Assembly (NCBI GenBank): GCA_030531005.1
Contig: JAUMTW010000001.1
Span: forward strand, 427,036-491,035
Source of the DNA: Corynebacterium sp.
Lineage (GTDB): Bacteria; Actinomycetota; Actinomycetes; Mycobacteriales; Mycobacteriaceae
Direction of reading: 5' to 3'
DNA length: 64,000 bases
The notes below the pieces were generated by a model. The model did not search any database, was not told the DNA's origin, and saw nothing but the letters and a program-made list of their open reading frames with translations. A program made the translations under genes and the position numbers. Positions 1 to 51,844 of this stretch are shown here, in pieces. The first letter of the stretch is position 1, and each line of letters starts with the position of its first letter.

Positions 1-105
1 ATTTCGCTTGAGATTGCATCCCAAGCCGGTATGATTATGCGAAAGCAATGGTCATGCCGGCTTTTGCTATGGTTAGCCATAGGTTCTGTTGCTTTAGGAG
101 CTTAA
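1..105 (+). CDS. Possible C-terminal end of a gene entering from the left edge
   Basis: Frame 1 is open from the first base to a TAA at 103-105 and gives 34 residues ending in a basic then hydrophobic stretch (RKQWSCRLLLWLAIGSVALGA-like, split here as a basic cluster followed by about 15 hydrophobic residues). This could be a C-terminal membrane anchor of a gene lying mostly outside the window. The open stretch is too short to prove coding, and no family is recognisable. Confidence 0.2.
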   Translation: MSLEIASQAGMIMRKQWSCRLLLWLAIGSVALGA

Positions 106-1373
106 GTGGTGTGCCGTCGTGTGGCTATGATGCCAAGATTATTTTGCCTGGTAACTGGCGCAAAAGCCGCCGTATCGTGGTCAGGGAAGTGCGTGTTCTG
201 CAAGTGAATTGTGTGGGCGTCGCATTCGTATCCACTGATCTACACCCTGGCCATCATGTACAGCAAAACTAAGCATTTTTCTATAGCAGGTTTTGATGAT
301 CCCAGCAGAGACATCAATGCTATGTGAATACCTACAACATGCTCCTACACAATTTCCATGAGGTACCGGATTATGTATGGCAAGTAGGATTGGGAAGCAA
401 GATGGAAAGTTCGGATGGAAACTGTGCAACAATAGGTTGCCTGCGAACGATACCTGGCGTTCAGAGTTCTTACACTGTTGGAGTGGATCATCAAACGGAG
501 TATCGGGACGCTTGTTGAAGCGGCCGTTAATACCAGCATATGCTCAGCTATCACATCACGCTGCTAGCTAGCGTATATGCGTACTTGAAGCAAATTGGTG
601 CATAGCTGGTTCGTGCATAACGTCAACGTTACTTTTGGAGTGCCCACGCTACTACTGCGGTTTAGCGTATTCCAAAATCTCCGTGTGTTATTGAATTCAC
701 CTGCAACAATCGTATAGTCCGGCCACCATAGCCCGAACATGAGACTTCTCAGCGCTGGATGTTCCCGGGGGATCGACGGACATCTGCGAGCCTTAGTAGC
801 GGGAAAAGTTCGCCAATGAAAACGTGCAGTAATCGTCATGCCAACAGCGCACTGTCACAGAGAAGAACACCCGGAAACTAGGGCCCGGCACAGAGCCTAC
901 GAAGGCAGAGGGAACGGGGAAATAGGCAACTAGGGCAGAAGACACCAGGCCAGAGTTGAAAACACGATACCGCGCGAAAATGTGAAATACAGTATCGAAA
1001 ATGTTTAAGGAAAAAGCGAGGTTCCTGAGGTTGCGATCGCTATTTTCGCCAATTTTGCCCGTAAAGCATTCAGGGGACGACTCAATGGCATGTACCTGTA
1101 GATGCGCCCCTATGTCGCCGCTTCATGTATACCTGCACCAGAAAATTTAGGGTGGCATATCCAGCCTAGAAGAGGCAAGACATATACCGCTGGATTTGAT
1201 GATGCTATTCCATTGCGCCCGACCAAGATTTGGATCACACCATATGAATCATGGGTGGTAGCTATCCGCTTCAGAAGAACTTAACTGCTGCCTCATCTTT
1301 GAGTGGATCGCGCGATCCCTGTCTTGCGATGGCCGAGTCAGGCACGTGGGGAAAGAATCTGCGCTCGTGTTGT
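106..1373. other. Gene-poor 1.27-kb stretch, probably decayed DNA
   Basis: No reading frame longer than about 90 codons exists on either strand, and none of the short ones has a ribosome binding site together with a recognisable protein family. The stretch is too long to be just a promoter region for a genome of this density. It most likely contains remnants of lost genes. I could not identify a parent family from the translated fragments. Confidence 0.4.
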
Positions 1374-1419
1374 AAACAATGTCTGGGCTCAACAAATCTG
1401 ATACGCCCAGACATTGTTT
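1374..1419. terminator. 15-bp perfect hairpin after the GH1 gene
   Basis: Bases 1374-1388 (AAACAATGTCTGGGC) are the exact reverse complement of 1405-1419, with a 16-base loop. The hairpin lies 20 bases past the stop codon of the minus-strand glycosidase and the stem ends in a TTT/AAA run on both strands, so it can terminate transcription from either side. Confidence 0.75.
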
Positions 1420-1438
1420 CGGTGAACTCGTTTGGTGG

Positions 1439-2878
1439 TTAACCCAACGATGCTGCTTGCCCTGCTTGCGCTTTCAGGAGTTGCGATCGCGGCCCATTGG
1501 GATCTGCCTTATTCAGGCATGAATTAGGGAAAGAAGCGAAAGAACAGAATGTCGGCTGCAGGTACAGCTGGGCATCTGCGCCTACTCCACCTTGGGAAGT
1601 AATCCTGCGATAGGTGTCTACTGCATCCGTTGGAATACGCTGCAGGGTTGGATCATTCTTAATATTGACTGTCCACAATCCAAAGCGAGAATCATATGAA
1701 CCCCACTCATAATTATCTACCAGTGACCAGTAATTATAGCCGATAAGCGGAATGCCATCGGCTTTGGCGCGTTGAAGCCAATACACAGTGTCATGGAGAT
1801 ACTCGCCACGGGTATAGCCATCTGGGCGCGGTGCAGCATTATCGGTTGGCATACCATTTTCTACGATATAGAGAGGCTTATCGGGGAAGAGCTCATGGTA
1901 CTGCTGGAGGGCATAATATATGCCTTCTGGTTCTGGAGTGACTGCTGCAAAGTTCCCAAAAGCGGCATGGATTGCGCTTAGGTTCGTAGCGGAAACAGAG
2001 TAATAATAGTCAATCCCCACATAATCCATATTGGAGAGCAACCGCTGTTGTAAAAATTTCTGCTGAATCGGAGTGATGGTGGGCATGAAAGCAAAATTAC
2101 TTCCCACCAATGCTGCAGGATCATGTGCATGGGCAGCCTGATATCCGATGGCGTTCCAGCGCTCGATCATATCCAAATAAGCAGGAAGATCATCGAGCTT
2201 TGCCAGCCCAATTTCGTGCTCATGCGCAAACCAAATAAAGGGCTCATTTAAGGTAACCCACATGGTGCCATTGCCGCCCCAGCGTTGGGTAATAAAGTCT
2301 GTATACGCAGTGAATCGTTCTGCCGCGAATTCACTTAATACGCCACCATTATCTATAATCCAACCGGGGTAGACATAATGCACCATGGTGATCATTGGAA
2401 CCATTCCGTAGTCACGAATGGTTTGGATTACGTCATCATAGTAGGCAACTTCTTCCATATTGTATTGCCCGGGCGTTGGTTCAATGCGTGCCCATTCAAT
2501 GCCAAGTCGGAACGTATTAACACCGAGAGAAGCTGCATTCGCAATGTCTTCGTGGTAACGGTGTCGGAAGTCAGCAGCATTGTCTACTGCGTCGATAGTC
2601 TTATGTCCATCGACGTGGGAAGTTTGTGCATACCGGTACCAATTACTATCAAAATTTGATCCTTCAATTTGGAAGCCGGAAGTTGCTACACCCCAGTGGA
2701 AATTTTCTAGCCCACCTTGATTATTGGGAATACCCGCAGTTGCAGGGGAAAACATTGCCGCACACATGCTTGCAACGAGCAAAATATTTGCTACTAGTGC
2801 TGGGCGACGACGCGCCGGATTCTGTGCTTGCTTTGGAGGGCAAGCACTTCTTTGTCGAAATGATTGTAAGCTCCACAT
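1439..2878 (-). CDS. Secreted glycoside hydrolase family 1 protein
   Basis: A 479-residue GH1 (beta-glucosidase/beta-galactosidase-type) retaining glycosidase. The (beta/alpha)8 signatures are clear: NFHWGVATSGFQIEG near residue 60-72, the acid/base Glu in VTLNEPF (about E212) and the nucleophile Glu in YIVENGMP (about E340). Residues 1-48 form a basic, then hydrophobic segment ending SPATAG, which fits a Sec signal peptide, unlike the cytosolic phospho-glucosidase BglA later in this window. The C-terminal 45 residues after the barrel are extra. The ATG at 2878 is chosen over the TTG at 2884. There is no good Shine-Dalgarno, but a TATACT box lies just upstream, so a leaderless or near-leaderless mRNA is possible. 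The location next to sialidase and endoglycoceramidase genes suggests trimming of host glycans. The true substrate is unknown. Confidence 0.88.
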   Translation of the reverse strand: MWSLQSFRQRSACPPKQAQNPARRRPALVANILLVASMCAAMFSPATAGIPNNQGGLENFHWGVATSGFQIEGSNFDSNWYRYAQTSHVDGHKTIDAVDNAADFRHRYHEDIANAASLGVNTFRLGIEWARIEPTPGQYNMEEVAYYDDVIQTIRDYGMVPMITMVHYVYPGWIIDNGGVLSEFAAERFTAYTDFITQRWGGNGTMWVTLNEPFIWFAHEHEIGLAKLDDLPAYLDMIERWNAIGYQAAHAHDPAALVGSNFAFMPTITPIQQKFLQQRLLSNMDYVGIDYYYSVSATNLSAIHAAFGNFAAVTPEPEGIYYALQQYHELFPDKPLYIVENGMPTDNAAPRPDGYTRGEYLHDTVYWLQRAKADGIPLIGYNYWSLVDNYEWGSYDSRFGLWTVNIKNDPTLQRIPTDAVDTYRRITSQGGVGADAQLYLQPTFCSFASFPNSCLNKADPNGPRSQLLKAQAGQAASLG

Positions 2879-3156
2879 AAGCAAAGTATAAATGCTTGAT
2901 GGTGTTAGAAAAGCTACATTTCAAAGAGATCTTCTTCACGTTGTACGGAACAATTGCGCTATTCATAGAGTTTTTGAGGTTGGAGGGGAAAGCGCTCGGA
3001 GCATGATGCGAGCCCAAGCACCCTCGAGCAGTTTTGACTGGATCCTGCTAGGACTCTCGCCCACTCAAGGGTACTTGGGTTTCTTAAGGCGTCTGGGGGA
3101 CCGCGGCGCATATGCGCCAGGGGCTGGGAAGCTGTCTTTGCTTCCTTAAACAGTGC

Positions 3157-4056
3157 TTAAGCCACAGAGGTAGTGCTACATGCTTGGTAAATATTGCGAA
3201 TCATGCGCACTCGCCGCTCAAGTGAGGCTTCCGGAGGCACACAACATTTCGCCCCAAGGTATGCTACCGACGCTGCTGCAGCAGCTGCTTGGGACACGTG
3301 GTTGGGCGTCATCAACGAAGCTGGCTCATCCGTGCTCAAAGGTAGGTGACCATCAATCCATTCCGGACCATAGATGGTCTCTTGTGGAGAAGCCCCAGAA
3401 AAAATGACTCCAACAAGCTTGCCAGCTTTTGCGGCCTGTTCCACATGAGCCAAGGGAGCAACATCGCCGCGCGAGCCCACAGCACTTCGCCCCCAATTTA
3501 AAGACACCCCGATACCAAGCTCACGAGCGACGGCTAACTCTTCTTCTAAGGGTAAAAACCCTTTTTCTGGGGTGTGATTGGTAGAGCGCTCATCGCAGTG
3601 CTCAATTGTCAATGAGGTAGAACCCCAATCCCACGAAAGCACTTCGGATAAAGAACGTGCAAATGCCTCTGGGGTGGAATGCTGGGTAGGTGCCGAATGC
3701 AATGCCACCCAGGAAAATACCGAATGGCCCGCTATTTCATGTACCCGTTGGACATCCTGATACAGCTCTTGGGTGAATTCCAACGCCGCTGACCGCCCAG
3801 CCTCATCGGGCGACCCCAACCCAAAGGAAGGAGCGTCCCAGACATTCACCATGGTGCCGGGAATTGCGGTTAGCACCGAAGAAGTGAAGCGATCCGCCAA
3901 AAGCTCTCCAAGAAACTCTGGACGATCAAACTGGCCGGGGTACGGAACCTCTAATCCATCAACCCAGCCGGTAGCTGCCAGGGCATCATAATACGCCCGC
4001 TGCCCGGCATCATTATCTGGTTGGGAAGCATAAGCGCCAACAATAAACTTGGACAT
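3157..4056 (-). CDS. DUF4862 family protein
   Basis: A 299-residue cytosolic protein that I recognise as DUF4862. Its alternating pattern and the segments SLTIEHCDER and VARELGIGVSLNWGR resemble TIM-barrel sugar isomerase/endonuclease IV-like folds, but no reaction is established. The ATG at 4056 is preferred to the TTG at 4062 because AAGGAG sits 8 bases upstream of it. It starts 42 bases after the stop of the sialate-type transporter gene and is surely cotranscribed with it, so a role in handling a sialic acid or another sugar released by the neighbouring glycosidases is a fair inference. No signal peptide and no membrane segments are seen. Confidence 0.8.
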   Translation of the reverse strand: MSKFIVGAYASQPDNDAGQRAYYDALAATGWVDGLEVPYPGQFDRPEFLGELLADRFTSSVLTAIPGTMVNVWDAPSFGLGSPDEAGRSAALEFTQELYQDVQRVHEIAGHSVFSWVALHSAPTQHSTPEAFARSLSEVLSWDWGSTSLTIEHCDERSTNHTPEKGFLPLEEELAVARELGIGVSLNWGRSAVGSRGDVAPLAHVEQAAKAGKLVGVIFSGASPQETIYGPEWIDGHLPLSTDEPASLMTPNHVSQAAAAAASVAYLGAKCCVPPEASLERRVRMIRNIYQACSTTSVA

Positions 4057-4098
4057 AAGCAAAACTCCTTAATTACCAGGGGAATGAAACAGCAACAA

Positions 4099-5607
4099 CT
4101 ACTTCGTTAGGGCAATAGTTTCATCGTTGCCATCCTCAGGGCGCACGGCAGAGGCATCAATAAGTTCCTGGGCGCGGCGCGGTAAATTCAGGCCAATAGA
4201 CAAAATCACGATGCTGGCGAAGCCAACTGAAAGTACAGCCAAGGCCATACCAAAGCCCCAAGAAGCAGCAAGTGCTGCACCAAGTACTGGGCCAACCGCC
4301 CCACCAAGAGCACCAACGTTATAGCAAAAGCCGAGACCGGCCGCGCGCTTTTCAATAGGGAAGTAAGAAGAAACCCACTTCGGCAGCAATCCGGAAATAC
4401 CTTGGCCGAACATCTGATTAAAGAACAGCAATAGCGCAACCAGGGCTACCCATTCGCCATTTTGCAAGAACAGTGGGAAGACTAAAGTCTGGGAGATGAA
4501 CAAAGAGATCACATACCAGCGACGCATCCCGAACTTATCACCGGCAAAACCAGCCAAAATATAACCCAGAGCATTACCAATACCGGCGAAGCTCACTACA
4601 TTCGCTACCGTATTTGGATCCATGCCCACATCATTGAGATAGGTAGGCAGCAATCCCTGGATAGGCCAGGTATACATAAAGGAAGCAAAGATTGCGACCA
4701 TAATCATCACGCCCACAACCCAACGATGAGGGTCAAACTGGTAGATGAAGTACACGAAGATACCACCAGCAGCAACGCCAAGAATAGCGATTACCCAAGC
4801 TGGTATTCCACCGACAGCGAAAATAAGTAGTAAGAATACAGAAGCTGTAATTACGCCAATCATATTCCGGGTACGCTGTGGTCCTCGGAATAAAACGGTG
4901 ATCATATCCGCTTCAGTCTTTTCAGACTTCTGCATCTCTTCCCAATCATCTGCCTCTGGCAAACTGCGACGCATATGGATCGCAACAACGATAGGAATAA
5001 TGCCGGTGAGGAACAAGGCGCGCCAGCCCCAACCTGGAGCAAAAGATTCAACCCAAGGCACCAATAGGCGATCCACTTGGGCAGCAAGAATCACACCAAA
5101 AGCAAAACCGGAAAGCAAAAAGCCACTAGCCTTATTGCGCATGTGTACCGGCCATGACTCAATGATATAGGTAGCCGAAGCAGAATATTCGCCAGCCATG
5201 GCAAACCCAATAACCAACCGGCAAATAAACAATAGCCAGAAACCTGGGGAGAATGCCATCAAAATAGAGGCACCGGCGAATAAGAAAATGGAAACGATCA
5301 TGGCTAGCTTCCGGCCATGCTTATCAGCCATTGCGCCCAGGATCAGACCACCAATCCAGCGCGATACGAAAGCGGCCGAAACCAACGCAGCGGATTCTAC
5401 TAACGTTAGATCAAACGCATCACGGATATAGGGCAAAGCGAAGGCAATCAGCACAAAGTCATAGCCATCAAGGAGAACACCGAGCCAGGCAGCAAAGAAT
5501 GCCTTCCACTTTTCCTTAGATAGATGCTTGTACCAAGGTAGATTTGGATCATAATCCAGGTGTGCCCGCGCTGGGCCTTGACCTGTCGATTGGGGATTGT
5601 GCGACAT
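4099..5607 (-). CDS. nanT: MFS transporter, sialic acid (NanT-like) type
   Basis: A 502-residue major facilitator superfamily protein with about twelve membrane segments. The loop motif GAMADKHGRKLAM (between segments 2 and 3) and the RLVIGFAMAGEYSASATYIIESWP segment (described in part) fit the sialate:H+ / metabolite:H+ symporter group that includes E. coli NanT. The length also fits that group. The ATG at 5607 has AAAGGA 8 bases upstream. It lies between the sialidase gene and the DUF4862 gene on the same strand, which supports N-acetylneuraminate as substrate. No catabolic nanA, nanE, nanK or nagAB genes occur in this window, so those steps must be encoded elsewhere if this is right. The symbol is therefore a functional suggestion. 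Confidence 0.78.
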   Translation of the reverse strand: MSHNPQSTGQGPARAHLDYDPNLPWYKHLSKEKWKAFFAAWLGVLLDGYDFVLIAFALPYIRDAFDLTLVESAALVSAAFVSRWIGGLILGAMADKHGRKLAMIVSIFLFAGASILMAFSPGFWLLFICRLVIGFAMAGEYSASATYIIESWPVHMRNKASGFLLSGFAFGVILAAQVDRLLVPWVESFAPGWGWRALFLTGIIPIVVAIHMRRSLPEADDWEEMQKSEKTEADMITVLFRGPQRTRNMIGVITASVFLLLIFAVGGIPAWVIAILGVAAGGIFVYFIYQFDPHRWVVGVMIMVAIFASFMYTWPIQGLLPTYLNDVGMDPNTVANVVSFAGIGNALGYILAGFAGDKFGMRRWYVISLFISQTLVFPLFLQNGEWVALVALLLFFNQMFGQGISGLLPKWVSSYFPIEKRAAGLGFCYNVGALGGAVGPVLGAALAASWGFGMALAVLSVGFASIVILSIGLNLPRRAQELIDASAVRPEDGNDETIALTK

Positions 5608-5972
5608 GATGAAAATCCTTTACACAACAGAAGGGGAGAGAGGGTAGAAAAAGATGAGAGGAACGCCGCTTTTGGGTAAGTTAATGCTCATCGTAAGATG
5701 TACTAGGTCGATACAGTGCGGTATCGTTGTTTCTGAGTAACGCAAGTAGTTGACCACTTTCTTCAGTCTTGAAGGAAAATAGCAGGGGTTAGTTCCTCCG
5801 TCATTGCAATATGCAATGCAGTTTGCGCTTGCTTTTTGAGGGGCAGCAGATTGGCAATATGCCAAAATGCACTTGTCCTGTAGACCTAACGAGTGCAAGT
5901 ACATTGAATATGCCGAAGAAGTGACATCTAGGAGTCTGTAGCATGGCAATTTTTTCTTTAGAATCCATACTT
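5608..5972. other. 365-bp gap between sialidase and transporter genes
   Basis: This holds the leader of the transporter gene on the minus strand. A 128-codon minus frame (5620-6006) overlaps the 3' end of the sialidase gene but resembles nothing and has no start signal, so I do not call it. The length of the gap suggests that the transporter has its own promoter. I could not place one with confidence. Confidence 0.35.
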
Positions 5973-8279
5973 TCAGGCCAGAGTATTGCGGGAATCGGTT
6001 AGCCAAGACAGCGGAATTCGAGTGAAGAACAACCCCTGTGTTTCACGTTCCCACAGTAAGCCCAAATCGCCATTTTCCAATTGAGCAAGGCATTGATACA
6101 CATAGTGCCGCGGTTGGAAAACTCGGTTGTGAGGCCAGGTGTGGATGTCTCCATAGCTCAAGCGCAGCACTCCACATCCCCGGAAAGGCAACATCTGGGA
6201 GGCATTAGCAAACACCACTGCAGGTTCGCCATTGACGTCAATGCTGATTGCATTAGGCTGCGAGAAGATCTCCGTGAGCTGCTCAATAAAATCAACTTCG
6301 CCCCAGCTTGCTCCGCCATCCCAAGAAATCGCGTGAGCTACCTTGCCACTCGGATGCTGATTGCGCATGAAGACATGTACAGAACCATCTGGCAACTCCA
6401 CAAGTGCCGATTCATGTAAAGAAGCACGGTCATCACTGAGAGTGCGGGAGTCAAGAGTGGATCCTTCAAATTCTCGGCCATCATTAGGAGAGGCTCCCAG
6501 GTGCCAGGTAGCTCCAGTGTCATCTGTGTACATAGCAGCGCAGGAGAATGTGATGCCCTCTTCATGGTTGTAATAGACCGGGATGAGGATTCGCCCCTTA
6601 TGCTCACCATATTTCAGCTGGATGCCGTTACCGGGGGAAGTACCAAAGAAACGCATCCAAGGCTGCTTAACCTGGGCGGTAATATCCTGCGGAGCTGACC
6701 ATGTTGCGCCGTCATCATCAGTATGAATGACTTGGACATAACTGGTCCGGTGGGTAAACAAACTTTCTTGTGGGTCCACCCCATAGGCCAAGTAGATGTT
6801 ACCTGCGGGAGTATCTTCAGAGAGAACATCACCATTGGGTGCAACAGTATATGCTGTGGGGGCTCCATCGATTGTGGTTACCGAACCGTCTGCATGCAGA
6901 GTGAAAAAATCTCCACTGCGGTTATGGAGTTGTACCCGCCCCTGTTCATCAAATCCCGTACCAACAGCGGCATTAGGTTGGCCCACTCCACCAGGGAAGT
7001 GGTCGATGACCATCAATACCCGTTCGCTTGATTGGTCTTGAACCAAGACAGAATCAATCACGGATGCGCCGAGTGCACCATCACCAGGGTATTCAATGAG
7101 AGTCTGTTGATCTTCCCAGGTCTTGCCATCATCAAAAGAGCGCCGCAGCACAAAATTAATATCGTTCGGACTGTCATTGGCAATACTTACCCGTTGATCG
7201 GCTCCAGCCAGCAAAGCCCCAGATTTCAGGCGTAGAAGAGATGGAATTCGGTAACTTTTAGAATCGTGAAAACCAGTGTCAAAGAGAGCTTGAGTCGGTA
7301 GTGGTTGTACTCCAGCCAAGCGCTTGACCTGAAAATCACTTAAGACGCTATCGTAGATTGCGGCAGTTTGCGCTTCGCCAAAAAGGCGAGAATTCGCCAA
7401 GTTCATGCCTACAGTGACGCGCTCTAGTGGGGCGATATCAGCAAAGAACGCAGCTCCCGGTGCCAATGCCACTTGATAGCCGTCCACATAGAGGATCAAG
7501 GCTCCCCGACCAGAAGTCAGCACCACATCATGCCAATTACCATCGTCCCAATGCCCGCTAGCGATTACCGAGGCAATGCATTCTGGTTGCATAGCGTCAT
7601 GTTCGAATACACGGAATGCTACGTTGCCGTCTTCTAGGACTAATTCGCAACGTTGGTGGCCACTGCCGCCCGCGATGATAGTTCCCCCTTGCCCTTGGCC
7701 GCGGGCCCTGAAGCGAGCACGTAATGAACCTTGCGCAAGTGCACCGCAGCGTTTGGTATCCCGTGCAGAGAGTTCGGCCGCAGCGAATTCCAAGAAAGGC
7801 TGAGCACTGGGCGCTAACGCCGGCAGAGCCGTTGCTGCTAAGCCCTCAGAATAGAGTTGTACGCGGGATATTTCGAGGACATGTGCCGGATTGAGCTTGA
7901 GTTCGGTAGCTTCGAGTTCGCTTAGCCATCCGAGCGGAGTGCAGCTGAATGCCTCATACCCATCTACATGGATATGTAAGCCTTGCGCATCATAGTTGAA
8001 CGCTAGCGTATGCAGCTTGGCATCATCGAGCACCAGGGTATCTTCAGCGTCAAGATAGCGGGTGTCGGCCCCCTTGGCATAGGTGCCGTTTAGTCGTCCG
8101 CCGGTGATTTCTGCGGTGATGTGCCCGTTATTTCCCTGGAGCGCAAATATCGGGCCGTCAATATTGCTTTGAAATTGCAAGAGTAAGCAACCCGTTGCGC
8201 TGCGAAATTCAGTGAGGGAAACGCTGGCTGATGGCTGTGTGAGGTCAAGGATGAGGCAATCTTGCGGACTTGAATTCAT
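5973..8279 (-). CDS. GH33 exo-sialidase with two LamG-like domains
   Basis: A 768-residue sialidase that releases terminal sialic acids. Two concanavalin/LamG-like jelly rolls come first (about residues 1-150 and 160-320, each with a VDGY motif). The six-bladed propeller follows, with YRIP (R344), four Asp boxes (SFDDGKTW 381-388, TDDDGATW 520-527, TDDTGATW 585-592, SWDGGASW 652-659), a triad-type Arg in FMRN (R639) and the Tyr-rich YVYQ near 726-729. The FGTSPGNGIQL segment resembles the NanB/NanC-like branch that carries a CBM40 domain, so a trans-sialidase product cannot be excluded. GGAAGG lies 7 bases before the ATG at 8279, which I prefer over the ATG at 8285. There is no signal peptide, unlike the secreted corynebacterial NanH. 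It lies upstream of the sialate-type transporter gene on the same strand. Confidence 0.9.
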   Translation of the reverse strand: MNSSPQDCLILDLTQPSASVSLTEFRSATGCLLLQFQSNIDGPIFALQGNNGHITAEITGGRLNGTYAKGADTRYLDAEDTLVLDDAKLHTLAFNYDAQGLHIHVDGYEAFSCTPLGWLSELEATELKLNPAHVLEISRVQLYSEGLAATALPALAPSAQPFLEFAAAELSARDTKRCGALAQGSLRARFRARGQGQGGTIIAGGSGHQRCELVLEDGNVAFRVFEHDAMQPECIASVIASGHWDDGNWHDVVLTSGRGALILYVDGYQVALAPGAAFFADIAPLERVTVGMNLANSRLFGEAQTAAIYDSVLSDFQVKRLAGVQPLPTQALFDTGFHDSKSYRIPSLLRLKSGALLAGADQRVSIANDSPNDINFVLRRSFDDGKTWEDQQTLIEYPGDGALGASVIDSVLVQDQSSERVLMVIDHFPGGVGQPNAAVGTGFDEQGRVQLHNRSGDFFTLHADGSVTTIDGAPTAYTVAPNGDVLSEDTPAGNIYLAYGVDPQESLFTHRTSYVQVIHTDDDGATWSAPQDITAQVKQPWMRFFGTSPGNGIQLKYGEHKGRILIPVYYNHEEGITFSCAAMYTDDTGATWHLGASPNDGREFEGSTLDSRTLSDDRASLHESALVELPDGSVHVFMRNQHPSGKVAHAISWDGGASWGEVDFIEQLTEIFSQPNAISIDVNGEPAVVFANASQMLPFRGCGVLRLSYGDIHTWPHNRVFQPRHYVYQCLAQLENGDLGLLWERETQGLFFTRIPLSWLTDSRNTLA

Positions 8280-9053
8280 GAACATTCCTTCCGAGGCATT
8301 GACTACGTCTCACATCTGACGTCTGACAAGTATCGTGTCTATAGAATAATGGAATAGTGGAGAAAAAGAGAGGGATTTTGAAAATTCCTTATCGCTTTAC
8401 GGTGTCAATGGAATATGATTCCGCCGTACGCAGCGGTTATGGTAGTGAGGTGCTCTATAAAACCAGAATTGATCCACTTTTAGAGCGTTGTGTATTACCC
8501 CATTTAGGGGTGAATGCGACGGAAAAAGATGTTAGAGAATTTGGCAACTTCATGTGGGCCAATGTGGAAGGCTGCGGTAGTGCCCGCTGTTTTTTGCGGT
8601 TACTTAGTCGCGGTGCTTGGGGATTGTGAGTGGCAAGACAATTCGAAAACTATTTTTAGATCAGATGTCCATAAAGTGTGTGCCGCTTCCTTATGTACGT
8701 ATTTTCGCACCAACCGAAGATTATAGGAGGATATCTTTCGGCTGCGTGTGAGACAGCAGGGCTGTTATTCAGACTGCACGAGTAATGAAAGCGGCCACAC
8801 TCGCTCACTGTAATGCTCAGGGTTAACAACGCTTTTGAAGTTTATATCGCAGGTGACAATGAATTCCCGGTTATAGCAGTCCGGGAAAGCCCCTCTTTCC
8901 TTGTTCACAGGGCCAGCTTTTCTGCCTTTCTGCCTTAACAGTTTCTCGGACTTTTGCTTTAGGATAATGGCGGGAGTATCTCAGTCTCATCTGTGAGGGG
9001 TTTCACGTAATCTTGTATATATACCGGTGAGCTGAGCTTGTTATCTTTAGGGT
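8280..9053. other. 774-bp divergent intergenic region
   Basis: The region separates the minus-strand sialidase gene from the plus-strand endoglycoceramidase gene and must hold both promoters. A TATATATA tract at about 9016-9022 could be the -10 region of the endoglycoceramidase gene. A 90-codon plus frame at 8357-8629 has no recognisable family. The size leaves room for a small gene or remnant that I cannot identify. Confidence 0.4.
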
Positions 9054-10661
9054 ATGTCGTTCCCTTATTTTCCCTCATTATGGAGCGCTCGTACACAGCA
9101 CAACGCTCCCGCAAATCCTATGGCACTTCGGCGTTTGCCCGCCTGCATTGGCTTCCTCCTCAGTGTGTTGATGCTGCTTAATGCTGCCTTCGTGCCAGTT
9201 CAGGCAAATGTGGAGACTAAAGATTCTCCAAGTGAGGCGGTACCTATTGCTGCAAATGCGCCCTCAAAAATCACTCAAGCAGGTCAATGGTTGGTTGATG
9301 AACAAGGCCGAGTTTTCTTAACCCAAGGCGTGAACATGGTATACAAGCATCCTCCATATACCGCACAGGCCGCTGGGTTTAATGCTGATGATGCCGAGTG
9401 GTTACAGGCGCAAGGGTTTGATTCGGTTCGCCTTGGCATTATTTGGAAAGCAGTAGAACCAGAGCCTGGCGTGTATGACGATGTATATTTGGCGCAGATT
9501 GCCGAAACGGTGACGATGCTTGCTGATCATGGCATCGCTACGCTCATTGATGCTCACCAGGATATGTATCACGAAAAATTTCAGGGAGAGTTCGCGCCGG
9601 ATTGGGCTGTAATTGATGACGGCTATCCTAGTTTCCTGCAAATAGGATTTCCCACCAATCAAGTTGTAAATGTGGGTTTGCTTCGAGCCTACGATAACTT
9701 CTTAAATAATCGGATGGGGCCAGGAGGCGTCGGCCTTCAAGATCGTTTTGCAGCCATGTGGCAGCATGTAGTCACGCAATTGGGTGGACTTCCATCCATC
9801 ATGGGCTATGACATTATCAATGAGCCCTGGCCAGGCAGTGATTTCCCAATCTGCTATGCAACGCTCGGGCATTGCGATGATGCAATAGCGAAACTTGATA
9901 GCTTGCATCAAAAAGCTGCGGATGCCATAACGGCAGTAGACCCTACAGCAACAATATATTTTGAGCCGTATTCGGTTTGGAATGCAGGGATAGCAATTAA
10001 CCCGCAAGCCCCCAAGGTTCCAGAGACTGCGGGTACCGTATTGAGCTGGCATGTGTACTGTGCAACCAATGCACTAATTGGGAAATATACCGGGTGTGAC
10101 CTACCAGATGGACAAGCGTTTGCTAACGCTCAGGCGATTTCCGATTCCCAGCAAATTCCGTCATTACTCTCTGAGTTTGGAGCCACAGATGATACTGACA
10201 CCTTATTAGGGGTAACGAACCTGGCTCGGGCTAATCGAATTGGCTGGCAGTATTGGTCCTATTGTGGATGTGATGATCCCACTACTCAAAATCAGCGGGA
10301 GCAAGGCATCGTTGCAGATCCCCAAGTCCCGGGGGCGGTCACAGCTGATGCTGTCAACGCAGAAAAGCTTGCAGTGCTCGCCCCGCCTCATATGCGTTTG
10401 ATAGCCGGAACTCCTGAGCTAACTCATTGGGATCACAACGCCAAGCAGTACCAAGCTCGCTGGACAACGACGCGAGCAGATGAGACTGGAGTATTTACGG
10501 CCGGTGAAAGTGTACTGTATGTGCCTTCGGCAAATTTCCCACATGGATTTGATATCCACGTCACTGGAGGTAGTTATACTATCGCACCCGATGGGCATAC
10601 GGTATATATTGCAGCAGATAAAGAAGCTTCAGAAGTTGCGGTAGAAGTGGTACCTGCTTGA
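9054..10661 (+). CDS. Secreted endoglycoceramidase-like GH5 glycosidase
   Basis: A 535-residue GH5 protein related to actinobacterial endoglycosylceramidases, which cut the bond between the oligosaccharide and ceramide of glycosphingolipids. The acid/base Glu is in IINEPWPGS (E257) and the nucleophile in SEFGATDD (E374). The LIDAHQDMY motif and the C-terminal beta-sandwich (about 430-535) also fit this group. A Sec signal lies at about residues 23-51 (MALRRLP then a hydrophobic core ending VQA). The ATG at 9054 has TTTAGGGT directly upstream. The ATG at 9120 would give a shorter and more typical signal peptide and may be the true start. No membrane anchor or LPXTG motif is seen, so the enzyme should be released. 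Its partner sialidase gene is divergently transcribed next door. Confidence 0.88.
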   Translation: MSFPYFPSLWSARTQHNAPANPMALRRLPACIGFLLSVLMLLNAAFVPVQANVETKDSPSEAVPIAANAPSKITQAGQWLVDEQGRVFLTQGVNMVYKHPPYTAQAAGFNADDAEWLQAQGFDSVRLGIIWKAVEPEPGVYDDVYLAQIAETVTMLADHGIATLIDAHQDMYHEKFQGEFAPDWAVIDDGYPSFLQIGFPTNQVVNVGLLRAYDNFLNNRMGPGGVGLQDRFAAMWQHVVTQLGGLPSIMGYDIINEPWPGSDFPICYATLGHCDDAIAKLDSLHQKAADAITAVDPTATIYFEPYSVWNAGIAINPQAPKVPETAGTVLSWHVYCATNALIGKYTGCDLPDGQAFANAQAISDSQQIPSLLSEFGATDDTDTLLGVTNLARANRIGWQYWSYCGCDDPTTQNQREQGIVADPQVPGAVTADAVNAEKLAVLAPPHMRLIAGTPELTHWDHNAKQYQARWTTTRADETGVFTAGESVLYVPSANFPHGFDIHVTGGSYTIAPDGHTVYIAADKEASEVAVEVVPA

Positions 10662-11239
10662 TTGCTCCCTGCGTTGGTGCTACCTGCCAGTCAGGAACTT
10701 ACTGCGCAGGTGTACCGCGCCATAGTCTGCGCTACTTGTGCCTTTAGGGCTTTCTTGCTTGTCAATGCTGGGGGAAGCATGAAACTACCTCCAAGGGGCA
10801 ATTGAGAAGATTTACGGTCACAGCGACGCTTTTTAGCTTTGCACAGGAAACTGCAGATTCCCTGTAGTTAGCTCGCCTGCGCTCATGCCCCAGCTGAGTT
10901 CAATCCGGGAAAGTTGAGCATCGTTGGACCAGTAAATCTGAGCGACGTGGAAGGGGAGCGGCTTTTGATCTCCAGTAGTGAGCGCGCGAGTAATCTGCGA
11001 TTTCCGATTCTTCGCTGAAAATGTGGATTCGTTCGTGGAAATTTGGGAAATGCCCGGAAAATGTATTGTGTTCTGTGGGAAATTCTCCTAATATTGTGAC
11101 TGTTTTACGCCAAATTGCTTTGTGTGACTCTGGCGACATTGTATCCGGTTTTTGTGCTGCATGTACGGTACGCAATCGTTTGAATGTTGACTCGAGCAAC
11201 AAGGCGATTGGCCTCTTATTCGAATTGAAAGGTTGACTC
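10662..11239. other. 578-bp region upstream of ptsG
   Basis: It contains the end of the endoglycoceramidase transcript and the ptsG promoter region. A weak TACCTGC/GCAGGTGTA hairpin lies at about 10680-10713. An imperfect GlxR-like site (TGTGACTCTGGCGACA, 11123-11138) is discussed under rejected items. The 71-codon plus frame at 11021-11236 looks spurious. Confidence 0.35.
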
Positions 11240-13294
11240 ATGGCTTCTGTGAAGCAGACTTCTGAGTTTATCTTGGAGCAGGTTGGTGGTGCCGAAAACA
11301 TCTCCAGCCTTACGCACTGTGCAACCCGTTTGCGCTTCCAATTGCGTGACCAGTCCAAGGCAAACCAGGAAGCCCTGGATGAAAACACTGACGTCCTTGG
11401 CGTGGTACCCCAGGGTAGCACTGGCCTACAAGTCGTGATGGGTGGTGGAGTTGCTGACTACTACCAAGAAATCGTTCGCCAACCAGGCATGGCTGATAAA
11501 GCAGCTGCCGATGAAGATGCGGATCAGAAGAAGAATTCCAAAGAATACGGCGGCGTACGCGGCAAGTATTCCAAGGTCGACTACTGCTTCGAATTCCTCT
11601 CGGACACCTTCCGTCCTATCCTATGGGCGTTACTTGGTGCCTCACTTATCATCACCTTGCTGGTATTACTCGATACCTTCGAGGTCCAGGATTTCCGTCA
11701 AGAGCTCAGCGAGCAGCCTCCAACCTATCAGTTGCTGCACGCAATGTATCAGTCGGTGTTCTACTTCCTGCCAATCATGATTGGTGCTACTGCAGCTCGT
11801 AAGCTTGGCGCCAATGAGTGGGTAGGTGCAGCCATTCCGGCAGCCTTGATGACTCCAGAATTCGCAGGGTTGGGCAACGTTGCTGAAACTGTGAACTTTA
11901 TGGGTGGCGACGCTCAGTCGGTTACAGTTTTCGGTCTGCCACTGATTCTCAATGATTATGCTGGTCAGGTCTTCCCGCCGCTGCTTTCCTCCATTGGACT
12001 GTACTGGGTAGAAAAAGGGTTAAAGAAGATCATTCCTTCAGCAGTGCACATGGTATTCGTGCCATTCTTTTCGCTGCTATTCATGATCCCGATCACCGCC
12101 TTCTTGCTCGGCCCCTTTGGTATCGGTGTTGGTAACGCAATCTCCAACTTCTTAAGCGCAGTTAATGACTTCTCGCCATTCGTGCTCGCCATTGTGATCC
12201 CATTGATGTACCCATTCTTGGTGCCGCTGGGTCTGCACTGGCCACTGAATGCGATCATGATCAACAATATCGCAACCTTGGGCTATGACTTCATCCAAGG
12301 CCCAATGGGTGCGTGGAACTTCGCCTGCTTCGGTGTCGTCACCGCTGTCTTCGTCCTGTCCATTAAGGAAAAGAATCCCCAAATGCGTCAGGTCTCTTTA
12401 GGCGGTTCTATGGCCGGTCTGCTTGGTGGCATTTCCGAGCCATCACTCTACGGCGTGCTGTTGCGATTCCGGAAGTCATATGCTCGCCTCCTGCCAGGCT
12501 GCTTGGTAGGCGGTATCGTAATGGGCTTCTTTGGAGTCACCGCAAATGCCTTCGTATTCACTTCAGTACTGACCATTCCCGCAATGGACCCAATTGGTGG
12601 CTATGCCTTAGGTATCCTGGCAGCCTTCACCACTTCTTTCCTGTTGGTACTCTTCTTTGATTACCGCACCAAAGAAGAAAAGGAAGAAGTACTGGCAAAG
12701 CTTGCTGCGCAGCGCCAAACTTCTGAAGAAGTTGCACCTGCAGCACCTGCTGCCGCGCAGGAACCTGCTTCCCACGGTGGCGTTGCTGTTGCTACCAAGC
12801 CAGTGAAGACCGCGCTGCAAGCCGGTACTGTCACTGAGCTGACCAGCCCGCTCGAAGGCGAAGCTGTTGCCTTGAGCGAAGTTCCAGACCCAATCTTTGC
12901 CGCTGCAAAGCTTGGCGAAGGGATTGCCATTAACCCAACCGGGGATACGGTGTATGCCCCGGCCGATGCAACGGTGCTCACCGTGCAGAAGTCTGGTCAC
13001 GCTATCGGTCTGCGCTTGGATTCTGGTATTGATTTGTTAGTCCACGTTGGTATCGACACCGTCCAACTCGGTGGCGAGGGCTTTGACGTCAAGGTGGAAA
13101 AGAAGCAGCAGGTTCGCCGCGGCGAGGCATTGATTTCTTTCGATAAAGCCTTCATCACCTCTAAGGGCTACAGCATGATAACCCCAGTGTTGGTTACCAA
13201 TACACCGAAGTTCGCTAATGTCGAAGGTCTGCCTGCTGCAGCGGCGAACACCGATACCGTGGTTATCCGTACTACCGCAAAGGATGCAGAGTAA
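11240..13294 (+). CDS. ptsG: Glucose-specific PTS permease EIIBCA
   Basis: A 684-residue phosphotransferase permease that imports and phosphorylates glucose. Domains run B-C-A: EIIB with the phospho-Cys in THCATRLRF (C27), EIIC at about residues 110-480 with about ten membrane segments, an Ala/Pro-rich linker (about 495-530), and EIIA with the phospho-His in LLVHVGIDTV (H602). The EYGGVRGKYS stretch and FEFLSDTFRPILWALLGAS match my memory of C. glutamicum PtsG, which has nearly the same length. GAAAGG lies just before the ATG. A good hairpin terminator follows, so it is probably monocistronic. In C. glutamicum ptsG is repressed by SugR. I could not verify an operator here. Confidence 0.95.
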   Translation: MASVKQTSEFILEQVGGAENISSLTHCATRLRFQLRDQSKANQEALDENTDVLGVVPQGSTGLQVVMGGGVADYYQEIVRQPGMADKAAADEDADQKKNSKEYGGVRGKYSKVDYCFEFLSDTFRPILWALLGASLIITLLVLLDTFEVQDFRQELSEQPPTYQLLHAMYQSVFYFLPIMIGATAARKLGANEWVGAAIPAALMTPEFAGLGNVAETVNFMGGDAQSVTVFGLPLILNDYAGQVFPPLLSSIGLYWVEKGLKKIIPSAVHMVFVPFFSLLFMIPITAFLLGPFGIGVGNAISNFLSAVNDFSPFVLAIVIPLMYPFLVPLGLHWPLNAIMINNIATLGYDFIQGPMGAWNFACFGVVTAVFVLSIKEKNPQMRQVSLGGSMAGLLGGISEPSLYGVLLRFRKSYARLLPGCLVGGIVMGFFGVTANAFVFTSVLTIPAMDPIGGYALGILAAFTTSFLLVLFFDYRTKEEKEEVLAKLAAQRQTSEEVAPAAPAAAQEPASHGGVAVATKPVKTALQAGTVTELTSPLEGEAVALSEVPDPIFAAAKLGEGIAINPTGDTVYAPADATVLTVQKSGHAIGLRLDSGIDLLVHVGIDTVQLGGEGFDVKVEKKQQVRRGEALISFDKAFITSKGYSMITPVLVTNTPKFANVEGLPAAAANTDTVVIRTTAKDAE

Positions 13295-13370
13295 TCGGGT
13301 AGTCGTACGAGCACACGAGCGCTCTAGCGCTCTAGTGCAGTTTGGTGAGCTGCTTGCCTGCTGACTGTGA

Positions 13371-13407
13371 AAAGGCCTTGGCACTTCAACGAAGCGTCAA
13401 GGCCTTT
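13371..13407 (+). terminator. ptsG terminator hairpin
   Basis: AAAGGCCTTG (13371-13380) is the exact reverse complement of 13398-13407, with an inner CTTC/GAAG pairing and a final TTT. It lies 77 bases after the ptsG stop codon. Confidence 0.75.
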
Positions 13408-13472
13408 GTGCTGCCTCCAGGAGTAGGGGGGGATGGGGTCGCGCATGTCTTTTTACGGGCTAGAATGAGCCT

Positions 13473-14099
13473 ATGTATATTGTGGGCTTAACAGGTGGTA
13501 TCGGTAGTGGAAAGTCAACAGTCAGTACCTGGCTCAGAAGCCACGCGCCAGACGTTGTCACCATCGTTGATGCGGATGCCGTATCGCGTGAAATTATGTC
13601 TCCGGGTTCACCAGTCTTGCCGCAGCTCCAAGAAGTATTTGGTGCCGATATTCTTGATGAGCATGGCGAGCTGCGACGCAGCCTGTTAGCCCAGCGCGCC
13701 TTCCACGATGAGCAACACACCGCCCAGCTTAATGCGATTACTCATCCAGAAATTCGACGTCGCGTGCGAGCCAAGATTGATGAAGCCACCACGCCATTAG
13801 TGATCCTAGATCACCCGCTGCTTATTGAAACGAATGCCGATGCGCTCGTAGATTCCGTGCTCGTTGTTACGGCTGATGTAGAAGCGCGAATAGCCCGCCT
13901 AGTACATCAGCGAGGACTGGATGAAGTGGATGTGCGCCGGCGTATGGCACAGCAGCTCAGCGATGCTCAGCGAAATAGTTATGCGGACGAACTTATTGAT
14001 AATTCTGGCACTTTGGAGGAATTAGAGGCCCAGATTGCCCAGTGGTGGGATGAGCTTGCGCAGCAACTGGGTTTGGGTGCTTCACAGGCATTGAGTTGA
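13473..14099 (+). CDS. coaE: Dephospho-CoA kinase
   Basis: This enzyme phosphorylates the ribose 3'-OH of dephospho-CoA with ATP, the last step of coenzyme A synthesis. The 208-residue protein starts with the P-loop GLTGGIGSGKST (residues 5-16), followed by VDADAVSREI and LDHPLLIET, all typical of CoaE. The length is close to the usual 200 residues, since it lacks the extra C-terminal domain found in mycobacteria. The ATG at 13473 is the natural start because the P-loop follows at once. Its position upstream of uvrB matches other corynebacteria. It is cytosolic and probably essential. Confidence 0.95.
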   Translation: MYIVGLTGGIGSGKSTVSTWLRSHAPDVVTIVDADAVSREIMSPGSPVLPQLQEVFGADILDEHGELRRSLLAQRAFHDEQHTAQLNAITHPEIRRRVRAKIDEATTPLVILDHPLLIETNADALVDSVLVVTADVEARIARLVHQRGLDEVDVRRRMAQQLSDAQRNSYADELIDNSGTLEELEAQIAQWWDELAQQLGLGASQALS

Positions 14100-14280
14100 A
14101 ACAATTTCCATTGTGCTATAGAAATATTTCATAGCGGTGCCTATGGGGATTGAACTGGGCAAATAGATTGATGCAGCAGTCAAGTAATTGTGCTTCTGCC
14201 GAAAATCTCGTAACAGAAAGATCCCTGCGCTTCTATAATTGGTAGCAGTTCTCGTTCCTAGGCCTTCGAAAGGTGCTCTT

Positions 14281-15717
14281 ATGGCTGATACCCGCCTTGC
14301 TCACTTCATTAATGGCGAATTTGTTACCCCCCGTGGCAGCGAATCCCTCGACATCATCAACCCTGCCACCAATGAGGTTGTGGCGGAAGCCCCAATTGCT
14401 ACCGCCGCAGAAATTGACGCTGCTTTTGCAGCTGCAACGGCCGCCTTTGAATCTATGCGCACGAGCACTCCTAGTCAGCGTCAGCGTTGGCTGCTGCAGC
14501 TGGCAGATTCCTTAGAAGAGCACGCCGATGAGATCATCGATGCCCAACACCGCAACACCGGTCAACCAAAGGCAGCAATTCGGCAGGAAGAGGTCTTAGG
14601 TGGCGCCGATCAATTGCGTTTCTTCGCAGGTGCTGCTCGCACCTTAGAAGGCCGCGCAGCCATGGAGTACCTCCCCGGGCATACTTCGTATATCCGTCGT
14701 GAACCACTTGGCGTCATTGCACAAGTCACTCCTTGGAACTATCCATTGGCGATGGCGATCTGGAAAATCGGCCCTGCAATTGCAGCCGGTAACACTATCG
14801 TGATGAAGCCATCGGATACCACCCCAGAATCCACCCTGGTGCTTGCCAAGCTGGCAAAGGATATCTTGCCTGCAGGAGTCTTCAACGTTATTTTGGGCGA
14901 TGCCAGTGTAGGTTCTGCTATGAGTGTGCATCCAGATGCGGCAATGGTTGCTATCACCGGGTCCGTGCGTGCTGGTCAAGCAGTAGCGAAGGCTGCTGGA
15001 GGGGAGCTCAAACGCACCCACCTGGAACTTGGTGGTAAGGCTCCAGCCATTGTTTTCGCCGATGCTGATTTGCCTCGCACGGCAGAACTCCTGTGCGCCT
15101 ATGGTTTCTTTAATGCCGGGCAAGATTGTACCGCCGTCACCCGTGTGCTCGTGGAGGAAAGTATTGCCGATGAATTTAGCGACCTGCTCGTTGCTGCGGC
15201 CAAGAAGGTCAGTACAGGTAACACTAATGAGGCTGATAATGAATATGGCCCGCTGAATAATTCCCGACACTTTGCCGCTGTGAGTGAAAAACTGGAGAAC
15301 CTGCCAAACCATGCCACGGTCTTAACTGGTGGTAAACGCGTGGCAGGGAACCCTGGCTTTTTCATCGAGCCAACTGTCATTAGCGGAGTGCGTCAAGATG
15401 ATGCGATCGTGCAAGAAGAAAGCTTCGCTCCAATCCTGACCATTCAAACGTTTGAGAGTGAAGAAGAGGCATTACGCCTTGCGAATGGGGTGGACTACGC
15501 CCTGGCATCCTCGGTGTGGACCAGCAACCATGGGAGGGCCGGTCGTTTTGCCCGCGATTTAGACTTCGGCTGTGTATGGATCAATACGCACATGGTGCTG
15601 TGTGCGGAGATGCCTCATGGTGGCTTTAAGCTTTCCGGTGATGGCAATGACTTGTCCATCTATGCCGTGGAGGAATATACCCGCATTAAACATGTAATGA
15701 GTGACATTACGGCCTAA
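14281..15717 (+). CDS. patD: Aldehyde dehydrogenase, gamma-aminobutyraldehyde type
   Basis: A 478-residue NAD(P)+-dependent aldehyde dehydrogenase. Visible motifs are the cofactor-binding VTPWNYPLAMAIWKIGPAI, the general base Glu in LELGGKAP and the catalytic Cys in NAGQDCTA. The ending GGFKLSGDGNDLSIYAVEEY and similarity to C. glutamicum PatD suggest oxidation of gamma-aminobutyraldehyde from putrescine. No patA or putrescine importer lies beside it, so this assignment is moderate. The ATG at 14281 is chosen because GAAAGG lies 8 bases upstream. The GTG at 14239 would add residues that the family lacks. It sits alone between coaE and uvrB. Confidence 0.85.
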   Translation: MADTRLAHFINGEFVTPRGSESLDIINPATNEVVAEAPIATAAEIDAAFAAATAAFESMRTSTPSQRQRWLLQLADSLEEHADEIIDAQHRNTGQPKAAIRQEEVLGGADQLRFFAGAARTLEGRAAMEYLPGHTSYIRREPLGVIAQVTPWNYPLAMAIWKIGPAIAAGNTIVMKPSDTTPESTLVLAKLAKDILPAGVFNVILGDASVGSAMSVHPDAAMVAITGSVRAGQAVAKAAGGELKRTHLELGGKAPAIVFADADLPRTAELLCAYGFFNAGQDCTAVTRVLVEESIADEFSDLLVAAAKKVSTGNTNEADNEYGPLNNSRHFAAVSEKLENLPNHATVLTGGKRVAGNPGFFIEPTVISGVRQDDAIVQEESFAPILTIQTFESEEEALRLANGVDYALASSVWTSNHGRAGRFARDLDFGCVWINTHMVLCAEMPHGGFKLSGDGNDLSIYAVEEYTRIKHVMSDITA

Positions 15718-49405: not shown

Positions 49406-50311
49406 TTAATTTTGCATCAAACGAGCAATATGCAAGGTGAGATAGGTAAGTTCTGCGTTAGAGCATTCGATTTCCGCTTCGAAATTAATAGCTACCATAA
49501 CGCGTTTTGCAATCCTATAGGCAGTAGGGTACTCATGAGCAACAGCATCTTGGAGACGTGCACCTGGTATTGCGGTTTCTTGCACCGGGTTAACTAATCG
49601 CTTCAGCAGAAAGCGGATGTGGGCAATAAAGCGTGCTGTGGCTAAAGAATCGCGATCGAGGATTCCAGGACCGCCGGGTAAAGCCGCGTCAACTATATCT
49701 AAAATGCGCTCCAGTAGTTCAGTTAAAGCAACAGTGCGAGCGAAATTTTGATTATCGCGATCATACTGTACATTGACCACATGTAAGGCAATAGCAACAG
49801 CCTCACTGGTATCGAATTGCACCCCGGTTTGGGCTCGAACTAGTTGGCAGGCCTGTTTCCCAAAAGCGTATTCGCTGGGGTAGAGATGCTGGATTTCCCA
49901 TTGTAACGCTGCCGGTGACTTTGCGCCGGCAAGGGTACGTTCTGTCGCCAAACGCAAATGGTCGGCTAAAGCCACAACTGCACTATCCGGCAAAGATGTA
50001 TGGCAGATTACCTGAGCTAGATCAGCGAGATTTTGAGCCAGTTCCAATTGTTTTGGGTCGATTTCAGCAACTAGGCGAGCAAGTTGTTCTGGAGGTTGGT
50101 TGGCCGCAGAATGATAGATTTGCTGTATTTCGGTGGTGGCAATGAGGTCTCCCCGCTTACGCTGGAATCCAATGCCTCGGCCAAAAAGGACAGCATCTTG
50201 CGTGGGGTCTGGTGTTGGTTGCGTACTAGATACCGCTAACACCACATTGTTATTTAGTACCTGCGCAACGCGCCAGGAAGAAGATTTAGTCACCGGTATA
50301 TCTCCACACAA
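49406..50311 (-). CDS. bglG: BglG/LicT-family transcriptional antiterminator
   Basis: A 301-residue regulator that binds an RNA antiterminator (RAT) and lets RNA polymerase pass the leader terminator of the bgl operon when beta-glucosides are present. The N-terminal RNA-binding CAT domain (about 12-65, VAQVLNNNVVLAV and GRGIGFQRKRGD) precedes two PRD domains (about 75-180 and 185-300). Conserved phosphorylation-type His lie in HLYPSEY-like and HVVNVQYD segments. BglF would phosphorylate the PRDs and switch it off without substrate. The start at 50311 is the first possible Met, and the internal TTG/GTG codons are alternatives. It is the last gene of the bglF-bglA-bglG set, separated by a hairpin. 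Confidence 0.92.
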   Translation of the reverse strand: MCGDIPVTKSSSWRVAQVLNNNVVLAVSSTQPTPDPTQDAVLFGRGIGFQRKRGDLIATTEIQQIYHSAANQPPEQLARLVAEIDPKQLELAQNLADLAQVICHTSLPDSAVVALADHLRLATERTLAGAKSPAALQWEIQHLYPSEYAFGKQACQLVRAQTGVQFDTSEAVAIALHVVNVQYDRDNQNFARTVALTELLERILDIVDAALPGGPGILDRDSLATARFIAHIRFLLKRLVNPVQETAIPGARLQDAVAHEYPTAYRIAKRVMVAINFEAEIECSNAELTYLTLHIARLMQN

Positions 50312-50361
50312 AATGATTTCTACAATTCATCTATACGTATGCTGATGCCCTACTGCGGATA

Positions 50362-50408
50362 CTCAAGGTATTACTTGTGACACCTTCGGTGGCAAGTAAT
50401 ACCTTGAG
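50362..50408 (-). terminator. 16-bp perfect hairpin between bglA and bglG
   Basis: CTCAAGGTATTACTTG (50362-50377) is fully complementary to 50393-50408, and the loop holds a small CACC/GGTG stem. It begins 12 bases after the bglA stop codon. It should cut most read-through into bglG, or protect the bglFA mRNA 3' end. No RAT-like sequence overlaps it, so control by BglG here is not supported. Confidence 0.8.
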
Positions 50409-50419
50409 ACGGTCACGAG

Positions 50420-51844
<1,425 letters not shown>

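Follow-up and report, generated by a model that had tools for sequence, protein, structure and literature searches.

A 64,000-nucleotide stretch of a Corynebacterium genome (C26:427036-491035 of a 2.57-Mb genome in 45 contigs; hereafter the window) carries, within 9.2 kb, genes for an endoglycoceramidase (EGC), a glycoside hydrolase family 1 (GH1) glycosidase, a sialidase, a sialate-type transporter and a DUF4862 protein. The reading that we favour, tentatively and at slightly less than an even chance, is that two pieces for scavenging host glycoconjugates have been joined at one site, one cutting glycolipids outside the cell and the other handling sialosides inside it. It builds on the identities of the genes, the fold of the EGC, the lack of a recognisable leader on the sialidase, the conserved sialidase-transporter-DUF4862 module and a tie to nanE; the substrates and cellular locations of all proteins are predictions from sequence.

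According to this reading, the EGC would act outside the cell, detaching the glycan in one piece from host glycosphingolipids whether or not it bears sialic acid, and the secreted GH1 would remove beta-linked glucose or galactose from glycolipids or from the glycans set free. The transporter would import a small sialoside, the leaderless sialidase would cut sialic acid from it inside the cell, and the freed product would enter the nan pathway encoded on another contig. The DUF4862 protein would probably be a metal-dependent sugar isomerase or epimerase in the sialoside branch. An earlier note on this DNA had grouped the sialidase, transporter, EGC and GH1, and profile and PDB matches found all four where it had placed them. 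Its gene list left out the DUF4862 gene, which separates GH1 from the transporter, and the divergent orientation of the EGC, separated from the sialidase by 768 bases and opposed to the other four genes.

Endoglycoceramidase and GH1 glycosidase

The EGC gene (9054..10661, plus strand) encodes a GH5 protein with a C-terminal beta domain, predicted to be secreted. It matched the Pfam families Cellulase (E 1e-21) and Glyco_hydro_5_C and, in a PDB sequence search, the Rhodococcus equi EGC (E 1e-42); its fold is a (beta/alpha)8 barrel followed by a C-terminal beta domain, similar to EGCase I/II. N256-E257-P258 and E374 were invariant in alignments of 16 and 28 sequences, the window's included; we take the glutamate of the NEP motif to be the acid/base and the second glutamate to be the nucleophile. 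The N-terminus is strongly hydrophobic (best 12-residue mean 2.8), and a tree of 30 rows placed the protein, with a long branch (0.6), inside the Corynebacterium clade (99/98). The identification is strong: by fold, the protein is an EGC, as the earlier note had proposed, and not a plant or fungal glucanase, and cleavage between glycan and ceramide is predicted. At 231.4 bits, against the 700-bit cut-off of the NCBIfam equivalog NF051847 'endoglycoceramidase I', its sequence marks it as a relative, not assignable as that equivalog itself. It seems highly improbable that the two enzymes, EGC and GH1, target glycolipids of non-host origin (steryl glucosides, fungal or plant glucosylceramide) rather than gangliosides.

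The GH1 gene (1439..2884, minus strand) matched Glyco_hydro_1 (E 2e-52), and its product is also predicted to be secreted, having a strongly hydrophobic N-terminus (best 12-residue mean 2.5). N213-E214-P215 and E342-N343-G344 were kept in the 12 proteins aligned out of 14 (window included, two left out), and the conserved C-terminal tail carries two invariant cysteines (447, 456). The protein belongs to the GH1 family but, at 186.6 bits, falls below the 478.5-bit cut-off of the TIGR03356 beta-glucosidase model. Matches of at least 50% identity occurred in 14 of 242 genomes of the genus, and profile matches at E<=1e-80 in 203 of 401 sampled genomes of the family; judged by sequence, the window GH1 is a member of a subgroup common in the family. 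The earlier note had GH1 trim the freed glycans. Trimming of GM1/GM2-type glycans looks incomplete because neither GH20 nor a GH2 C-domain had a match in the genome (other beta-galactosidase families were not searched).

Several further observations concern EGC and GH1 genes elsewhere. Window positions 49406-53806 hold a GH1-like gene, 26% identical to the secreted GH1 over 242 residues, with an antiterminator gene (PRD/CAT_RBD) and a second phosphotransferase system (PTS) EIIABC gene beside it; this looks like an ordinary beta-glucoside PTS operon, and a similar set lies on C39 (L148). Divergent EGC-like genes stand near a macrolide-glycosyltransferase-like gene at L098, L099 and L100 (genomes G072, G049 and G129), and two EGC genes face each other in G072. 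Mycolicibacter-type genomes have two to three EGC matches in a row at L193, L197, L201, L205, L209, L211, L213, L218, L221 and L223. EGC genes near glgA- or glgC-like genes were seen at L090-L094 (C. amycolatum group) and L155-L156 (Cutibacterium); three of these neighbours were tested by Pfam and the rest assigned by clustering or by eye.

The sialidase module and its predicted location

The sialidase gene (5973..8285, minus strand) encodes a GH33 protein with an N-terminal LamG-like domain, predicted to be cytoplasmic. It matched BNR_2 (6e-18) and, in a PDB sequence search, NanI-type chains of Clostridium perfringens over residues 333-768 (E 3e-91); a YRIP-type motif and Asp boxes were present by eye, in line with GH33. 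In a comparison by score with the intramolecular trans-sialidases (NanB/NanL type), it reached 310 bits with the hydrolytic NanI type, 126 with 1sli and 83 with NanB.

No leader peptide was seen by eye or in a hydrophobicity scan of the first 60 residues (best 12-residue mean 0.95), and GGAAGGA lies a few bases before the second ATG. A genus search with the window protein found no second sialidase in the window's genome. We examined 13 N-termini: the window's and 12 from 11 further loci, L118 having a pair. Eleven lacked a leader by eye, with uncertain start codons in L115-L117, and Tat-like (twin-arginine) leaders were seen in two, the second genes of L118 and L120. The L118 tandem (8807-13533) consists of a leaderless copy orthologous to the window's, with 25 residues before the point aligning with window residue 28, and a Tat-type copy with 52 residues before the point aligning with window residue 23. 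In the L120 tandem (2-4565) the second gene is the Tat-like one and the first is cut off by the locus edge; the start of this first sialidase was not settled in L139, another stretch of that genome. Since the window sialidase has no recognisable leader and is the only one that the search found in the genome, its sequence makes removal of sialic acid outside the cell, as supposed by the earlier note, unlikely.

This bears directly on the route of the earlier note, in which the sialidase acts outside, the transporter imports the sialic acid, and EGC and GH1 then dismantle the asialo glycolipid. The close packing of all its parts speaks for this route, as does its likeness to the scenario proposed for the sialidases, sialic acid transporter and EGC of Cutibacterium acnes (PMC3848858). 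Moreover, a Tat-type leader would escape a simple hydrophobicity measure; we thus regarded the scan as insufficient for sole proof of a missing leader. Against it stand the missing leader and the PDB titles of R. equi EGCase I structures, which include complexes with GM1 and GM3, both bearing sialic acid, so that prior desialylation need not be required. We consider the route rather unlikely. Joint action on gangliosides may occur in view of the parts, the EGC fold and the nan genes, but neither external desialylation nor conservation of the cluster (see below) is supported, and the order of the steps is probably different.

The transporter (4099..5607, minus strand), of the NanT-type subfamily of the major facilitator superfamily (MFS), scored 706.4 bits against the 604-bit cut-off of NF003024 (sialate:H+ symport), which predicts its substrate. 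A sialic acid gene cluster was found on another contig than the module (C45:1667-12112), bearing out the expectation of nan genes elsewhere for nanE (243.6 bits, cut-off 189) and nagB (353.9 bits, cut-off 326); the neighbouring nanA-like (DapA/NanA-family) and nanK-like (ROK-family) genes fell below every cut-off shown, and the NanR-like regulator below its own. The cluster also holds Opp-type ATP-binding cassette (ABC) carrier genes and a Tat-type binding protein. As it thus seems to have a carrier of its own, the MFS carrier may serve a different substrate. This could be a sialylated oligosaccharide: the EGC would free the whole glycan outside, the NanT-type carrier would import it, and desialylation in the cytoplasm and an isomerase step by DUF4862 would follow. 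We regard this inverted route as quite unlikely; if true, it would make DUF4862 an enzyme of sialoside catabolism not described before.

The DUF4862 gene (3157..4062, minus strand; PF16154, E 5e-95) is the freshest lead. E154-H155-C156-D157, N189-W190-G191-R192, D237 and H239 (in D-x-H-L-P) were invariant in 19 sequences. A single-sequence model was poor (predicted local distance difference test, pLDDT, 46); its best Foldseek match was UlaE (E 1.7e-3), followed by rhamnose isomerase and tagatose/psicose epimerases, none at E<=0.001, and a profile of the 19 sequences had D-tagatose 3-epimerase first, at a non-significant E of 0.23. These weak fold and profile hints agree, and the protein is possibly, on this tentative modelling, a xylose-isomerase-like TIM barrel and hence a candidate isomerase or epimerase in sialoside use. 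The gene lies about 10 kb from nanE in five genomes (G011, G202, G126, G088, G137), 17-27 kb away in three, and farther or on another contig in 12. The term DUF4862 was not met in our literature text search.

Conservation and genomic setting

We fetched 47 loci from relatives (15 with EGC, 13 with GH1 and 19 with DUF4862; 9-17 kb each, reaching about 6-8 kb to each side, less in L120). The conservation of the cluster, on which the earlier note had staked its claim beforehand, did not hold: EGC or GH1 stood together with the sialidase module in 0/47 loci, and a conserved five-gene cluster was likewise rejected at 0/47. Neither EGC nor GH1 was present in the 19 DUF4862 loci, neither GH1 nor the module in the 15 EGC loci, and neither EGC nor the module in the 13 GH1 loci; weak MFS matches (23-24%) in some loci were not counted as module. 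Six other genomes have both EGC and GH1; there the genes lie at least about 90 kb from each other or on separate contigs, so that among the 242 genomes of the genus their grouping is seen in the window's genome only.

The sialidase module itself recurs. Sialidase, MFS and DUF4862 genes were adjacent in 10 of the 19 other DUF4862 loci; in one more, the sialidase is there but the MFS gene is not. The sialidase is reversed in the kroppenstedtii group (L124-L127), and a second sialidase is interposed in L118 and L120. In C. parakroppenstedtii (L125) a DHDPS-family (nanA-like) gene stands next to the module, with a glucosamine-isomerase-family (nagB-like) gene nearby.

Co-occurrence was counted over the 242 genomes of the genus with sets of 13 EGC genomes (of 40 matched, E<=1e-190; broad set 16), 14 GH1 genomes (of 80, E<=1e-150), 18 sialidase genomes (of 39; counted on long orthologues, of which some are split in two, and without domain-only matches), 20 DUF4862 genomes (of 21; the short match in G178 left out) and 79 NanE genomes (of 115, E<=1e-20). 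GH1 and EGC overlapped in 6 genomes against 0.75 expected (3 against 0.26 with relatives collapsed by hand), GH1 and sialidase in 8 against 1.0 (collapsed, 4 against 0.60), and EGC and sialidase in 5 against 1.0. All 20 DUF4862 genomes had nanE (expected 6.5, p 3e-11, kinship ignored; 13/13 when collapsed by hand), as did 17/18 sialidase and 11/14 GH1 genomes. These overlaps tie both DUF4862 and the sialidase to the use of sialic acid, which the EGC does not follow, and GH1 stands in between.

Could the site then be a chance hotspot, with EGC and GH1 foraging for lipids alongside secreted lipases, the module serving mucin- or milk-type sialosides, and no joint ganglioside pathway? The 0/47 count favours this, together with the company that the two enzymes keep in relatives. 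GH1 loci had a lipase nearby in 5 cases, a GDSL esterase in 6 and paired acyl-CoA ligases in 3, with at least one of these in 7/13, and by eye the N-termini of these lipases and esterases look secreted. Lipases lie near the EGC in 3/15 Corynebacterium loci, two of which (C. oculi and C. mastitidis) also have a GDSL esterase and an aldehyde dehydrogenase, and in 3/5 Cutibacterium loci (L168, L169 and L171; not L155 or L156). Also, 7/13 EGC genomes lack nanE. However, no such lipase was found in the other 12/15 EGC loci, including the C. amycolatum group, where the EGC adjoins glgA- or glgC-like genes, and the window held no homologue of these lipases at E<=1e-6. Moreover, the GH1-sialidase and GH1-EGC overlaps exceed expectation though the genes are unlinked elsewhere, and all five genes occur in four kroppenstedtii-group genomes. 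We judge the hotspot somewhat unlikely.

Several points weigh against the favoured reading of two joined scavenging pieces. The overlap counts rest on related genomes, and that of EGC with sialidase falls to 2 against 0.36 when relatives are collapsed by hand; nanE occurs in only 6/13 EGC genomes (expected 4.2, p 0.22, kinship ignored). Hydrophobicity by itself does not tell the two kinds of sialidase apart: it reaches only 1.23 in the Tat-type copy of L118 but 1.79, in a segment further in, in L114, which by eye has no leader. The sialidase may be exported without a leader or by an unusual route, or released by lysis. The carrier may import only free N-acetylneuraminic acid (Neu5Ac), leaving a cytoplasmic sialidase without substrate, and we know of no NanT-type carrier that imports sialyl-oligosaccharides.

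A reading in which lipid auxotrophy is the driver, EGC and GH1 supplying the fatty acids of ceramide, was not kept. A type I fatty acid synthase match was absent from 9/16 EGC genomes (broad set) against 69/242 overall (p 0.015) and from 7/14 GH1 genomes (p 0.067); the match in the window's genome is weak, at 187.7 bits with a 2494-aa open frame. Lying at L229 (G000:C1:64928-65770; E 2.4e-55), it is weaker than the best match of any other of the 173 genomes that have one, the next weakest being that of G212 (3.8e-65).

The insertion site is marked by a conserved neighbour outside the claimed pathway, a PTS EIIABC gene (11240..13294, plus strand). The gene order is a four-S1-domain rpsA-like gene, the five-gene set, PTS, coaE and uvrB; the names rpsA, nanA, nanK, glgA and glgC are those that we presume from family matches. 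The rpsA-like gene adjoins the site in the window's genome and G060; PTS and coaE-uvrB flank the module in G127, G138 and G060, and in the window and G029 the module lies on the other side of the PTS gene, adjoining it in G029. The site between the rpsA-like gene and PTS-coaE-uvrB looks insertion-prone. G+C contents of 0.479 (GH1) and 0.498 (EGC) against 0.519 for the window give a weak hint of mobile origin. Among plasmid records, GH1 had no match at E<=1e-40 and EGC matched eight, the best being 40% identical (Mycobacterium riyadhense). Rfam gave no match in window positions 1-15000, promoter- and terminator-like sites were no more frequent than in shuffled sequence, and the intergenic pieces had no match at E<=1e-3 in the relatives' loci compared. 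About 1.5 kb without a sizeable gene (window 1-1438) separates GH1 from the end of the rpsA-like gene just outside the window, and a 15-base perfect inverted repeat lies at 1374-1419.

Comparison with known systems

Both the components and the general idea of a ganglioside role have been described before. The window EGC shares with R. equi EGCase I (PDB 5ccu, 5j14, 5j7z) the catalytic motifs and, from residue 65 to residue 535, the fold with its C-terminal beta domain, but is only 29-30% identical to it in structural alignment. In C. acnes, sialidases, a sialic acid transporter and EGC were proposed in 2013 to act on gangliosides (PMC3848858). Its sialidase-transporter-CAMP2 cluster and EGC/lipase pair, the EGC and triacylglycerol lipase having neighbouring gene numbers (PPA2106/PPA2105), represent the same kinds of enzyme as the window, but its sialidases (PPA0684, PPA0685) and EGC (PPA0644, PPA2106) are apart by gene number, and the passages of that account drawn on here mention neither DUF4862 nor GH1. 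Actinobacterial nanA/K/E genes are mostly accompanied by Opp-type ABC carriers and sometimes by MFS carriers and sialidases (PMC8754123), whereas the MFS-sialidase module of the window lies on another contig than nanE; the main text of that survey contains no 'DUF', and thus no DUF4862. We recognised no further account of such an arrangement in Corynebacterium in our literature search.

If the favoured reading is true, some corynebacteria would take glycans off host glycolipids outside the cell and remove the sialic acid once inside, which would keep it from competitors. DUF4862, so far a family of no known function, would then be linked to the use of sialic acid, and the published view that the kroppenstedtii sialidase is secreted would be corrected. 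For C. kroppenstedtii subsp. demodicis, a 'secretome' from genome data brings together EGC, beta-glucosidase, NanI sialidase and lipase (PMC13244258); the sialidase is called secreted there, whereas the orthologues of the group (L124-L127) show no leader in our analysis. Unlike in the window, where they stand at one site, the EGC, GH1 and sialidase genes of the kroppenstedtii group lie at three separate loci.

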